A program made the position numbers and the translations under genes. The notes beneath the pieces are model-generated. The model searched no databases, was not told the DNA's origin, and saw nothing but the letters and a program-made list of their open reading frames with translations. From Bacilli bacterium (GTDB lineage: Bacteria; Bacillota_I; Bacilli_A; RFN20; CAG-826): DNA of 58,207 bases. Of this stretch, positions 19,660-49,715 are shown in pieces (the first letter of the stretch is position 1; every line of letters begins with the position of its first letter). Location of the stretch: positions 1 to 58,207 of the forward strand of contig JAKSVF010000007.1 of the NCBI GenBank assembly GCA_024408235.1, written 5' to 3'.

Positions 19660-19705
19660 TTTTTGGGAAAAAACTTGAATAACTCCTCTATTTATTAGTA
19701 AGGAG
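19660..19705 (+). promoter_or_regulatory. Leader segment shared with the 299-bp repeats
   Basis: From 19660 this region closely matches the toxin promoter side of the two 299-bp repeats (read on their minus strand); the 19 bases at 19681-19699 are identical. CTCCT at 19683-19687 can pair with AGGAG at 19701-19705, hiding the ribosome site of the next gene. It may be a promoter of an unusual class or a 5' regulatory hairpin. Confidence 0.45.
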
Positions 19706-19714
19706 ATATTTTTT

Positions 19715-20089
19715 ATGAGCACTACAGAAACCGTAAAATTAGGCAAGGTAACCAAGGACCTTCAACGCAAAATTGGAGTGGATTTTGGAGATAAAGACAA
19801 AATCTACATTTTGGAAAAAGAACTGGATGTTATAGCAGCGACAGATCCTAGTGGCTACCTCGCTAAAGTTCATGAGGCATCATTCATCATTCAAAAGCCG
19901 GACATTGTCTTCTTTGATGAAGAAAGAAATAAGCTTCATTTTGTTAAACTTTACTTCATCAACGACATGTTCAGAATTGTTGGAGTGTCATGTTTTAGAG
20001 ACGGACAGTTTTACTTTGAAAAGATGTACGTACTGAACGACAAAACGAAATATGATTCATTTGAAGGACTCGAAGGCGTGATTGTGTAA
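19715..20089 (+). CDS. Conserved-looking protein of unknown function
   Basis: 124 residues with ribosome site AGGAG at 19701-19705 before ATG 19715. Predicted as a mixed alpha/beta small cytosolic protein, with alternating hydrophobic strands (KPDIVFFDEERNKLHFVKLYF, split here for reading) and many charged residues; no signal peptide and no membrane segment. I recognise no family. It precedes the NUDIX gene by 12 bases, but that gene has its own promoter. Its leader is shared with the toxin-like repeats at 32.1 and 43.9 kb, which may mean common regulation. Confidence 0.5.
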   Translation: MSTTETVKLGKVTKDLQRKIGVDFGDKDKIYILEKELDVIAATDPSGYLAKVHEASFIIQKPDIVFFDEERNKLHFVKLYFINDMFRIVGVSCFRDGQFYFEKMYVLNDKTKYDSFEGLEGVIV

Positions 20090-26779: not shown

Positions 26780-27082
26780 TTGGCATTTTGATAAACGTGT
26801 GTAATATGGCCACATAGCATTGAAGGGAAATAGTACCTTTCGAGTAAGACTTGAGCGAGCCGCTGATGGTGAGAGGGCGGTGTCTGAGGCGATTGGGAAC
26901 GCGTCCTGGAGCTGATTCCTGAAATTAGTAGGGAACTCCGTGTTCGCACGTTATAGCGACTTTGGGTTACTAACTGACCCGGAAAGGCAATTGCCGTGAG
27001 GCTGTTGCAAACTAAGGTGGCACCACGTTATTAAAGTAACGTCCTTAGGCTAAGTAGCTTAGGGACGTTTTGTTTTATAGAA
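26780..27082 (+). promoter_or_regulatory. T-box riboswitch leader, probably arginine-specific
   Basis: Promoter TTGGCA (26780-26785), 16 bases, TAATAT (26802-26807). The leader has AGTA elements at 26832 and 26843, a GAGCGAGCCGCTGATGGTGA stem I apex, and GAA-CGC-G at 26897-26903 where the specifier is expected: CGC, Arg. The T-box AGGTGGCACCACG is at 27015-27027; its TGGC would pair with a tRNA end bearing discriminator G. A terminator (AACGTCC/GGACGTT plus T-run) lies at 27038-27080. Uncharged tRNA-Arg would favour readthrough into the transporter and argGH. The specifier call is inference. Confidence 0.85.
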
Positions 27083-30706: not shown

Positions 30707-32080
30707 ATGGAAAAGCTTTGGAGCGGAAGAACTAAAGGAGCAACATCCGAAATAGCGGACTCTTTCAACTCGTCCATCACATTTGATTCCCGGCTTTATA
30801 GTGAGGATATAGAAGGCTCAATCGCCCACGCGATGATGCTCGCTCACCAGGGAATCATCTCCGAGGAAGAGAAAGAAGAAATTGTTAACGGACTCATTTC
30901 AATAAAAGATGACATCTTTACCAACAGCATCAAGATTGATATGAGCGCGGAAGACATCCACATGTTCATCGAAAGCGAGCTCACTAAGAGAATCGGGGAG
31001 GCGGGAAAGAAACTTCACACCGCCAGATCGAGAAACGACCAGGTGGCTTTAGATACAAGGCTTCATCTGCTTAAGAAGATAAAACTAATAAAGCATAGCC
31101 TTAAGAAACTCATCAAATCTCTTGTAAAAAAGGCGGAAAATCACGTTTCAACGATCATGCCTGGCTACACCCACCTACAAAGAGCCCAACCAATATCATT
31201 TGCTCACTTGCTTCTTGCATATGTTGCAATGCTAGATAGGGACATTGATAGACTGGATGATTTAAAGAAGAGAGTAGGGGTATCTCCTATTGGAGCGTGT
31301 GCTCTGGCAGGAACAACTTATGACACCGATAGATTCTATGAGGCCGAACTTTTAGGACTCGACAAAGTGAGTGTTAACTCGCTTGATGCCGTATCTGACC
31401 GTGACTTTGTCGTCGAGTTCCTTGCTGACGCCTCTCTCATCATGATGCATCTTTCAAGAATGTCAGAGGAGTTCATCATCTACTCATCTTGGGAATTCAA
31501 GTTCATTGAGTTCTCGGATGAATTCACAACCGGTTCATCAATAATGCCTCAAAAGAAGAATTCAGATATGGCTGAACTCATAAGAGGAAAGACCGGAAGA
31601 GTGTATGGAGATTTAATCTCTCTCCTCGTGACCTTAAAAGGTCTCCCACTTGCTTATAACAAAGATATGCAAGAGGACAAGGAAGCTATGTTTGACGCGA
31701 TTGACACTCTAGAAGCCTGTTTAAAGGTTATGACACCTATGATTGATACGATGAAGGTATTCGAAGATAACATGCTTCTAGCGGCCCAAAAAGGGTTCAT
31801 CAACGCAACGGATTTAGCGGACTATCTCGTCTCAAAAGGCCTACCATTTAGAGAAGCTTATAAAGTCTCAGGGTCTCTTGTCGGTGACTGCATTAAGAAC
31901 AACACGATTCTTGAGAAGATGAATCTAACAGAATTCAAAGCGTTCTCACCACTAATAGAGGATGATGTTTATGAAGCGATTTCATTAACAACATGTCTAA
32001 ACAAGAGAAATTCTTATGGTGGCACATCGCCAAAGAACGTCATGATGCAGATTGAGTTATATAAAAAGAGATATAAGTAG
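30707..32080 (+). CDS. argH: Argininosuccinate lyase
   Basis: 457 residues, full length. The fumarase/aspartase signature GSSIMPQKKN is intact, as are TARSRNDQVALDTRL, the HLQRAQP catalytic His region and the N-terminal LWSGRTKG. It splits argininosuccinate into arginine and fumarate. Starts 2 bases after the argG stop, with no separate ribosome site, so translation is coupled. Last gene of the T-box operon; an intrinsic terminator follows. Confidence 0.95.
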   Translation: MEKLWSGRTKGATSEIADSFNSSITFDSRLYSEDIEGSIAHAMMLAHQGIISEEEKEEIVNGLISIKDDIFTNSIKIDMSAEDIHMFIESELTKRIGEAGKKLHTARSRNDQVALDTRLHLLKKIKLIKHSLKKLIKSLVKKAENHVSTIMPGYTHLQRAQPISFAHLLLAYVAMLDRDIDRLDDLKKRVGVSPIGACALAGTTYDTDRFYEAELLGLDKVSVNSLDAVSDRDFVVEFLADASLIMMHLSRMSEEFIIYSSWEFKFIEFSDEFTTGSSIMPQKKNSDMAELIRGKTGRVYGDLISLLVTLKGLPLAYNKDMQEDKEAMFDAIDTLEACLKVMTPMIDTMKVFEDNMLLAAQKGFINATDLADYLVSKGLPFREAYKVSGSLVGDCIKNNTILEKMNLTEFKAFSPLIEDDVYEAISLTTCLNKRNSYGGTSPKNVMMQIELYKKRYK

Positions 32081-32117: not shown

Positions 32118-32203
32118 ATCAAAAAACCGGCCCTGCAGCGCTGCAAGGCCGGCCCTTCCCGCTCCCACTTGCCATGAGGGAAGGATAGGTCTATACTACG
32201 ACT

Positions 32204-32246
32204 GAGCGTGGGAACTCAGAGGTAGGATTCGTCCTACTTCTTTTTG
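32204..32246 (+). ncRNA. Candidate antisense antitoxin RNA, copy 1
   Basis: Promoter TTGCCA (32169-32174), exact 17-base spacer, TATACT (32192-32197). The RNA would start near 32204, form a CTGAG/CTCAG hairpin and end at GTAGGA-TTCG-TCCTAC plus T-run (32222-32246). It is complementary to the last codons and 3' end of the peptide mRNA, the overlap used by txpA/RatA-like type I systems. Confidence 0.6.
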
Positions 32247-32305
32247 TTCCCTAGCTCAGCTAGTATCAGGAGCACGATGATCAGGATGATTACCGCATCC
32301 GACAT
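32234..32305 (-). CDS. Small hydrophobic peptide, type I toxin-like, copy 1
   Basis: 23 residues: start MSDAVIILIIV, end LAELGNKKK. One membrane helix with an acidic start and a Lys tail, the shape of holin-like type I toxins. AAGGAGG is 7 bases before ATG 32305. The stop codon sits inside the stem of the antisense RNA terminator. Identical in the second copy. Too short for a confident family match; assignment rests on architecture. Confidence 0.65.
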   Translation of the reverse strand: MSDAVIILIIVLLILAELGNKKK

Positions 32306-32434
32306 CACGCCTCCTCCTTTCCTTGCCCATGAGGCCTGGAGCGGCTGTTTGGGAGCATTTCATGAACATGCCCTCCACTAATAAATAGAGGAGTTTTCCT
32401 GATTTTTTACCAAAAACTTTTCAATCTTATAAGA

Positions 32435-32463: not shown

Positions 32464-34044
32464 TTATTTTCCGGAGTTTCCGTAGTTTGATAGAACCCTA
32501 GCAGAGGGATCGTTTACATTACAGCCATCCCATCTCTTGTTTGGCATCCAGAAATCGACAATCATTTCTGCTTGACCTGGATAGTATTTCTCAAATATTT
32601 CTCTATATAAAAGCGACTCTTTCGTGAATGGCGTTGCGTGTTTATATGCAACTCTTTTCGCTTCGTATTCTTCATCCGAATAACATGTTCCAGCGAACCC
32701 CTTTAAGTGGTCGACCATAGAATGGCCTACTGCATCAGAGAACGCCGCCTTATCTCTCATAAGTATTTCTTTTGGAAGAATGTCATCAGCCTCAAACGCA
32801 TGCCTTAACAAATATTTGCCGATGCCATATGAGTTCATCTTTAACTTAGGGTCTATTGCCATTACATATTTAACGAACTCTAAATCGCCAAACGGGACTC
32901 TAGCTTCTAAAGAGTTGACTGAGATGCAGCGATCTGCGCGCAAAACATCATACATGTGTATCTCACGAATACGTTTAATTGCCTCCATCTGGAATTCTTT
33001 AGGATTTGGAGCGAAGTCTGTGTACTTGTATCCGAATAACTCATCCGATATTTCTCCTGTTAAAATCACTCTGACATCGCTTTGCTCATGGATGGCTTTG
33101 CATATTAGATACATGCCCATTGAAGCTCGGATAGTCGTGATGTCATACGTAGCCAATGTCTTGATCACAAAATCCAGTGACTCTAAAACGTCTTCTTTGG
33201 TCATGATTATTTCATGATGATCAGAACCTATAAAGTCTGCGACCTTCTTAGCATACTTTAAGTCAATGGCATCAGTAGACATGCCAATCGCATAAGTCTT
33301 GATTGGCTTATTTAACAACTTTTGTGAAATAGCGCATACCAAAGAAGAATCTAATCCTCCGGACAATAAGAAACCTAATGGAGCGTCAGCATCTAATCTC
33401 TTTTCAACGCCTTTTATTAGCAAATCGTGGATATTTTTGCATGTTTTTTCAAGATTATCCGTATTGTATTCGCTCACTTCCGTCACATCTTTATAACAAT
33501 GGAACTCACCATCTTTGTAATAGCGTCCAGGAGGGAATGGAAGTATCTTTTCAACAAGCGGTATCAGGTTCTTTGGCTCAGAGGCAAATGCGATATTGCC
33601 CCATTTGTCATATCCATAATATAGGGGCCTAATTCCGATCGGATCTCTAGCGGCTATAAATGATTTTAATGAAGCGTCATAGATGATTAAGGCATATTCA
33701 GCATCAAGCATCTTGAACATCTCTACCCCGTATTCCTCATATAAAGGGAGAAGGATTTCGCAATCGGACTCACTTACAAAACTGTATCCCTTTGAGATTA
33801 GTCCTTCTTTCAGTTTTCTAAAACCGTATATTTCTCCATTACAGATAAGGTAATTATTGTTCATATTAAAAGGCTGCATACCCGAAGGCGATAAACCCAT
33901 GATTGATAAGCGGTGGAAACCTAAATAACCATTCTCGATTTCAACGATTCTAGACATATCAGGTCCACGAGAAATTGTCTCATCGAACCCTTTCTGGAAC
34001 TCATCCAATGAAAGAGGCCCAATGTAACCCATAATTGAACACAT
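32464..34044 (-). CDS. asnB: Asparagine synthase (glutamine-hydrolysing)
   Basis: 526 residues. Begins MCSIMGYIG, so Cys2 becomes the N-terminal nucleophile of the glutaminase domain; FHRLSIMG and NGEIYGFR follow. The C-terminal synthetase domain has the PP-loop LLSGGLDSSLV. It converts aspartate to asparagine using glutamine nitrogen and ATP, acting as E. coli AsnB. AAAGGAG precedes the start. It follows the Amt-PII gene on the same strand after 57 bases that include a strong hairpin, so partial cotranscription is possible. It fits the nitrogen island. Confidence 0.93.
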   Translation of the reverse strand: MCSIMGYIGPLSLDEFQKGFDETISRGPDMSRIVEIENGYLGFHRLSIMGLSPSGMQPFNMNNNYLICNGEIYGFRKLKEGLISKGYSFVSESDCEILLPLYEEYGVEMFKMLDAEYALIIYDASLKSFIAARDPIGIRPLYYGYDKWGNIAFASEPKNLIPLVEKILPFPPGRYYKDGEFHCYKDVTEVSEYNTDNLEKTCKNIHDLLIKGVEKRLDADAPLGFLLSGGLDSSLVCAISQKLLNKPIKTYAIGMSTDAIDLKYAKKVADFIGSDHHEIIMTKEDVLESLDFVIKTLATYDITTIRASMGMYLICKAIHEQSDVRVILTGEISDELFGYKYTDFAPNPKEFQMEAIKRIREIHMYDVLRADRCISVNSLEARVPFGDLEFVKYVMAIDPKLKMNSYGIGKYLLRHAFEADDILPKEILMRDKAAFSDAVGHSMVDHLKGFAGTCYSDEEYEAKRVAYKHATPFTKESLLYREIFEKYYPGQAEMIVDFWMPNKRWDGCNVNDPSARVLSNYGNSGK

Positions 34045-43822: not shown

Positions 43823-43966
43823 CGCAATCGGTGCGAAGCGTTACAGACGCCGTTGTGCAAGATTATTGTGTCTAATGCGGATAATAAAACCGGCCCTGCA
43901 GCGCTGCAAGGCCGGCCCTTCCCGCTCCCACTTGCCATGAGGGAAGGATAGGTCTATACTACGACT

Positions 43967-44009
43967 GAGCGTGGGAACTCAGAGGTAGGATTCGTCCTAC
44001 TTCTTTTTG
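43967..44009 (+). ncRNA. Candidate antisense antitoxin RNA, copy 2
   Basis: Same sequence and promoter as copy 1: TTGCCA (43932-43937), 17 bases, TATACT (43955-43960), ending at the GTAGGA/TCCTAC hairpin. Because sequences match, either RNA could act on both peptide mRNAs. Confidence 0.6.
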
Positions 44010-44068
44010 TTCCCTAGCTCAGCTAGTATCAGGAGCACGATGATCAGGATGATTACCGCATCCGACAT
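43997..44068 (-). CDS. Small hydrophobic peptide, type I toxin-like, copy 2
   Basis: 23 residues identical to the product at 32234-32305, with the same AAGGAGG ribosome site. Single membrane helix and Lys tail. See copy 1 for the reasoning. Confidence 0.65.
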   Translation of the reverse strand: MSDAVIILIIVLLILAELGNKKK

Positions 44069-44241
44069 CACGCCTCCTCCTTTCCTTGCCCATGAGGCCT
44101 GGAGCGGCTGTTTGGGAGCATTTCATGAACATGCCCTCCACTAATAAATAGAGGAGTTTTCCTGATTTTTTACCAAAAACTTTTTATTTGCATAAGAAAA
44201 ACCCCAATTAGTGCACTAATGATAGCGAGGGTAATTTCACT

Positions 44242-49515: not shown

Positions 49516-49610
49516 GCAAAAAGTTGAATATGACACCATAAAAATGATACTTTTGGGTGATAAATCAACAATCATTTGACTTGTAATATTTGCCTAGAAA
49601 ACTATACTTT

Positions 49611-49715
49611 ACTCATCGGGAATGATGTCTCCCGGAGCAATGCTCGAACCGCCTTATTAAGCTGATGACGTCTATGCCTCTTTTTTGGCGTAGATTTCAT
49701 GGCTTTATTTTTTTG
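49611..49715 (+). promoter_or_regulatory. Fluoride riboswitch (crcB motif)
   Basis: Stem GGGA/TCCC (49618-49621, 49630-49633) closes loop ATGATGTC; its GATGTC pairs with GACGTC (49667-49672) to form the pseudoknot. AACCGCC and GCTGATGAC match the conserved crcB core. A small GAGC-AAT-GCTC hairpin is inserted. TCTATGCC (49671-49678) can instead pair with GGCGTAGA (49687-49694), a terminator-like switch. Promoter: TTGTAA (49581-49586), TATACT (49603-49608). Confidence 0.85.

Follow-up and report, generated by a model that had tools for sequence, protein, structure and literature searches.

The window analysed here (58,207 nucleotides, contig JAKSVF010000007.1 of assembly GCA_024408235.1, from a Bacilli bacterium) carries two identical copies of a compact unit that most likely belongs to a multicopy type I toxin–antitoxin (TA) family whose members sit within the natural-competence regulon of this Bacilli lineage, with the roles of its parts predicted. 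The sequence comparisons below indicate that the family is real, apparently undescribed, and apparently a variant of the type I TA design that lies outside TxpA/RatA.

Anatomy of the unit and its exact duplicate

The unit covers 299 bp of the minus strand (32123–32421) between two genes that we take, from reading them, to be argH (30707–32080, plus strand) and an asparagine-synthase-like gene (32464–34044, minus strand). In the direction of the toxin mRNA it opens with a promoter-like element, GGTAAAAAATC...CTCCTCTATTTATTAGTGGAGGG (32371–32411, minus strand), of a type common to competence genes. This is followed by an overlapping upstream ORF (uORF) of 37 codons, MFMKCSQ...APDTS* (32256–32369, minus strand), which starts at the Shine-Dalgarno (SD) sequence GTGGAGGG and runs 50 nt into the toxin ORF before it stops. 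The latter, a hydrophobic ORF of 23 codons behind AAGGAGGAGG (32305–32234, minus strand, stop codon included), encodes the toxin-like membrane peptide MSDAVIILIIVLLILAELGNKKK and has a strong SD region, AAGGAGGAGGCGTG, just upstream. The mRNA would end at a GC-rich terminator hairpin with a T-run (32154–32121, minus strand). On the opposite strand, a convergent sigma70-type promoter, TTGCCA-17-TATACT (32169–32197, plus strand), is the sole 10-of-12 site within 1.5 kb and is predicted to give an antisense RNA of about 43 nt, the putative antitoxin (32204–32246, plus strand; start placed from the promoter). The terminator of this RNA, AGAGGTAGGATTCGTCCTACTTCT followed by TTTTTG (32218–32246, plus strand; hairpin 32218–32241), overlaps the peptide stop codon. 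The mRNA of the window unit folded better than all of its dinucleotide shuffles (z −7.35, 0/200 as good).

The second copy lies about 12 kb away on the same strand (43886–44184; promoter 44174–44134, uORF 44132–44019, toxin 44068–43997). Its flanks are unrelated to those of the first copy, the identical stretch coincides with the bounds of the feature described in the initial annotation, and no target-site duplications were seen when the ends of both window copies were inspected by eye. Since identical copies 12 kb apart are seen here on a draft contig, an assembly error has a small residual probability. The initial annotation had described the 23-residue membrane peptide with its strong SD, the convergent consensus promoter, the RNA of about 43 bases with its own terminator over the peptide stop, and the strong GC hairpin ending the peptide mRNA, all of which were recovered at the positions given above; the competence-shared toxin promoter, the overlapping uORF and the exact duplicate were absent from it. 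Elsewhere in the window, Rfam models scored above gathering score for a T-box leader (26811–27049) that lies upstream of an amino-acid ABC transporter and for a fluoride riboswitch (49609–49681).

Family members, frame selection and predicted antisense genes

A peptide search gave 12 units in the genome of the window (G000), and among the 145 genomes examined only G000 and G027 (Bacillales, now Caryophanales, bacterium UBA1744, to which it was assigned because motif positions and spacings are equal) matched at an E value of 0.001. A wider profile applied to 37 genomes of the genus brought out further units of G027, as well as a single one of G017; four other genomes gave weak matches only (E 0.1–0.5, uncounted), and units were absent from most of the 37. 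The 25 units analysed comprised 12 from G000, 12 from G027 and one intact unit from G017, a third species, with a decayed second G017 unit (L160) and a fragment on G000 contig C65 excluded; the searched genomes are draft assemblies, probably of uncultured bacteria. The peptides fell into a smaller subfamily of 23–25 aa (the two window units, four from G027 and one from G017) and a larger one of 19–24 aa, of the type MILVAIAAxLVIxILVRLLK, holding the other 18 units. The nearest relative of the window peptide was MSDMIILLVIILLILVELGNKKK from G027 (L157). The initial annotation had called the peptide sequence unfamiliar. Searches of Pfam, NCBIfam and PADLOC returned no meaningful match among 17/18 peptides, and neither the window unit nor six related loci reached the gathering score of any Rfam family. 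Low-threshold Rfam matches on the unit were sub-threshold and chance-like, and were discarded. Some genomic sites hold different units in two species (by eye, e.g. contig C7 in G000 and C70 in G027), which suggests exchange among sites.

The small hydrophobic ORF was found to be under selection. Specifically, 11 of the 18 larger-subfamily units, chosen for ungapped alignment, gave 272/131/502 differences at toxin codon positions 1/2/3 over 55 pairwise comparisons, and codons with a single change were synonymous in 335 cases vs 152 that were not. In the smaller subfamily, four comparisons gave a total of 33/8/27, a small number of events in which the second position was the most conserved. With these values and an ORF kept in two other genomes, the objection that the peptide frame might not be conserved in homologues, raised beforehand against a type I TA-like unit, fails. 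The overlapping uORF was present in 22/25 units, where its stop lies 50 or 53 nt into the toxin frame, and the other three lacked it in that form. Its free part showed no coding signal (257/229/219 differences by codon position, eight units); as its residues are unconserved, any role it has is putative.

An opposite-strand sigma70-like site downstream of the toxin stop (9–11 of 12 positions, spacing 16–17) was found in 22/22 of the first units and, after three were added, in 25/25, with the −10 box 28–63 nt past the toxin stop. Shuffles of the region equalled the promoter score at a frequency of 0–0.23, so that single cases can be weak; the constant position of the promoter is not expected by chance. 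Antisense terminators were found in 18/25 units under a strict stem-plus-T rule, several of the misses being, by eye, stems with mismatches. An antisense RNA gene encoded in cis and facing the toxin mRNA is thereby predicted, and the earlier proposal of a type I TA-like unit is well supported. The identical copy and 23 further homologous units keep both the frame and the convergent promoter, which is more than chance would give.

The mRNA structure was compared across units. RNAalifold on 16 larger-subfamily units gave 23 pairs, 15 of them with changes on both sides. The pairs form a helix between the two ends of the mRNA, a hairpin within the coding region and a stem framing the antisense target. 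Owing to the high GC content of the arms, whole-arm duplex energies gave no information, and contiguous helices were used instead. Cognate end-arms of 22 units scored a mean of 26.4 vs 18.9 for re-dealt arms, a difference unreached in 20,000 permutations that the relatedness of the units makes somewhat generous, and the cognate arm was the best in its row for 12/22 units. Helices of at least 9 bp at homologous offsets occurred in 12/21 non-redundant units (four near-duplicate or shortened units dropped) vs 47/420 non-cognate combinations; the 12 include a weak smaller-subfamily case, G27_C80a (score 18). In the window's subfamily the end-pairing is without covariation, 7 bp long (shuffle P 0.18) and weak at homologous offsets, where it was not found in most smaller-subfamily units, so that none is claimed for this subfamily. 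The type I TA design is thus supported by frame selection together with the 25/25 convergent promoters, and RNA covariation adds support in the larger subfamily.

The toxin-side promoter and competence genes

The unit opens with ~80 bases of a dispersed element, GGKAAAAAA-N14-CTAYTWRTWAGTGGAGG, whose core at ≤2 mismatches has 16 sites in the genome of the window vs 0 for the reversed pattern. A total of 25 element sites were counted, 12 in toxin units and 13 elsewhere, the latter before recA, recX, dprA, a ComFA-like helicase gene, comEA, a TadA-type pilus operon, genes for four related proteins of ~250 aa, a PBECR3-like gene and an ABC transporter, with one orphan. RecA, RecX (one domain), DprA and ComEA (helix-hairpin-helix model) scored above curated cut-offs, as did the pilus ATPase domain above its own; the ComFA-like call is based only on helicase domains and a cysteine-rich N-terminus. 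ComEC was not recovered by Pfam profile, and the start of a ComEC-like candidate after comEA, cut by the contig end, had no NCBIfam model match. The complete element also lies upstream of recA in G027, G016 and G036, and many of the recA loci inspected from the genus have a CTATWTATWAG-like core ahead of the SD. The element is therefore common to DNA-uptake and DNA-processing genes across species. A search of genome contigs with the core returned just two records, both of UBA1744.

The recA element of G017 has a different form (CACGTCTATTTATAAGTGAGG), which also precedes dprA, comEA, a ComFA-like gene, a homologue of the PBECR3-like gene and both the intact and the decayed toxin units. In this one further species, by consensus matching, the dialect had 11 sites at ≤3 mismatches vs 3 for the reversed pattern, the other four preceding short or unidentified ORFs. 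Since the dialect is shared with the toxin units, these appear to follow each species' own competence element, and no other evidence speaks as strongly for the link being functional. Because the toxin promoter element is common to competence genes, this dialect included, competent cells are the probable site of toxin mRNA synthesis, and the antitoxin is probably produced in ordinary growth.

Several other loci were recorded. In the window, a competence-type element (19665–19706, plus strand) stands before a gene (19715–20089, plus strand) that is a regulon member and not a toxin unit; its 124-aa PBECR3-like product has a weak match below the Pfam cut-off and shares 27% identity with the G017 homologue (L163), which lies behind the G017 dialect. 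The four ~250-aa proteins (L032, L037, L042 and L050) have similar starts, each behind a competence-type element; two that were compared were 28% identical, and one that was scanned had no Pfam match. The Tad-like pilus operon with its TadA-type ATPase (L140, 2255–6196) is possibly the DNA-uptake pilus of the lineage, replacing a classic comG operon. Directly after a toxin unit stands an orphan element, in matching positions of the two species (L045 ~1500, G000 C7:2939; and L075). Two small sigma factors are present besides RpoD (L134, 1426–1929; L135, 1402–1944) and are candidates for a competence sigma factor.

The sharing of a promoter element with uptake genes would also suit a peptide that is no toxin at all, namely a beneficial competence-induced small membrane protein (e.g. 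one altering membrane potential or the uptake machinery) that the antisense RNA keeps off outside competence, and the label of toxin is itself a prediction. This explanation is nevertheless considered unlikely. The 12 copies in one genome are dispersed, diverging and partly duplicated, with different antisense loops, another genome holds a decayed copy, and presence across the genus is patchy; such copy number, divergence, decay and patchiness have the look of TA biology rather than of a part of a machine. A lower probability still is given to the element being a dispersed repeat or a phage-type promoter whose position before recA, dprA and comEA is coincidental, without a link to competence. 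Its sites before the four related uncharacterised proteins, the PBECR3-like gene and the ABC transporter would fit this; the recA loci of the other genomes, the different G017 dialect marking the same gene set, and the 0 exact matches of the core in viral contigs argue against it. That the unit is a structured regulatory RNA or a mobile repeat with an incidental short ORF would suit the very strong RNA structure and the exact duplication, but is the least probable explanation of all, given the concentration of differences at toxin third positions and the ORF kept in three species.

Predicted wiring and comparison with known systems

The preferred reading, a type I TA family under competence control, may work as follows. 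The competence promoter would make a highly structured, closed mRNA, with the uORF starting at a strong SD at the 5′ end and running over the start of the membrane peptide of 19–25 residues. Translation of the peptide would have to wait for the mRNA to open, perhaps aided by ribosomes on the uORF. The convergent housekeeping promoter would make a hairpin RNA of ~40 nt, complementary to the mRNA at and just after the toxin stop, which would pair through its loop and tail and mark the toxin mRNA for decay. Growing cells would thus hold antitoxin RNA in excess and toxin mRNA would be rare; in competent cells the toxin mRNA would be induced and convergent transcription would lower the antitoxin, so that the peptide may act on competent cells by slowing or depolarising them, or may kill the ones that lose the antitoxin source. 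A tentative extension, itself rather doubtful, is that the units are transformation-addiction modules: with toxin mRNA made in competent cells only, replacement or loss of a unit by recombination with incoming DNA would remove the antitoxin source with toxin mRNA still present, leading to poisoning. If so, the units would guard against curing by natural transformation and spread along competence-regulon promoter sites.

The interest of the family lies in this wiring rather than in the peptide. If a competence-type toxin promoter is indeed set against a housekeeping-type antitoxin promoter, RNA-controlled self-poisoning would be linked to natural transformation. The family would then offer a concrete system for the growth pause of competent cells and for the resistance of TA loci to curing by transformation, as well as for asking how RNAs of ~40 nt silence short mRNAs whose ends pair and which carry overlapping uORFs.

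Ibs/Sib and similar type I systems with many copies and short peptides resemble the family in copy number and in their hydrophobic peptides of about 20 residues, and differ from it in antisense position, regulation and sequence. The B. subtilis systems TxpA/RatA, BsrG/SR4, BsrE/SR5 and YonT/SR6 share with it, as predicted here, a small membrane toxin, a convergent antisense gene overlapping on the 3′ side and a likely loop contact followed by decay; their RNAs measure 100–222 nt and their toxins 30–59 aa (PMC6562991), in contrast to ~40 nt and 19–25 aa in the family. TxpA/RatA, located in the skin element, is given there with a TxpA of 59 aa, a RatA of 222 nt and a complementarity of 100–140 bp (PMC6562991), none of which is found in the units. 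The txpA/RatA logic proposed in the initial annotation therefore stands for the 3′-side overlap and not for the sizes of antisense RNA and peptide, the uORF, the end-pairing in most larger-subfamily units or the competence-type promoter; these last three set the family apart from the B. subtilis systems, to which no sequence match was found.

With Hok/Mok/Sok of plasmid R1, whose hok mRNA is controlled by the overlapping mok frame and 3′-end processing (PMC4147584), the family shares an overlapping upstream ORF and, in the larger subfamily, mRNA end-pairing. Unlike in Hok/Sok, the antisense gene lies at the toxin stop and not at the uORF or leader, and the peptide is much shorter and unrelated (PMC4147584). 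Among the papers listed by searches of open-licence PMC, none placed a type I system within a competence regulon; the nearest TA locus under competence control in those listings was toxTA of Haemophilus influenzae, one operon with a competence promoter under CRP/Sxy regulation (PMC6957337). It is like the present family in being a TA locus under a competence promoter, and differs in that toxTA is type II, with a protein antitoxin (PMC6957337), whereas the antitoxin predicted here is an RNA.
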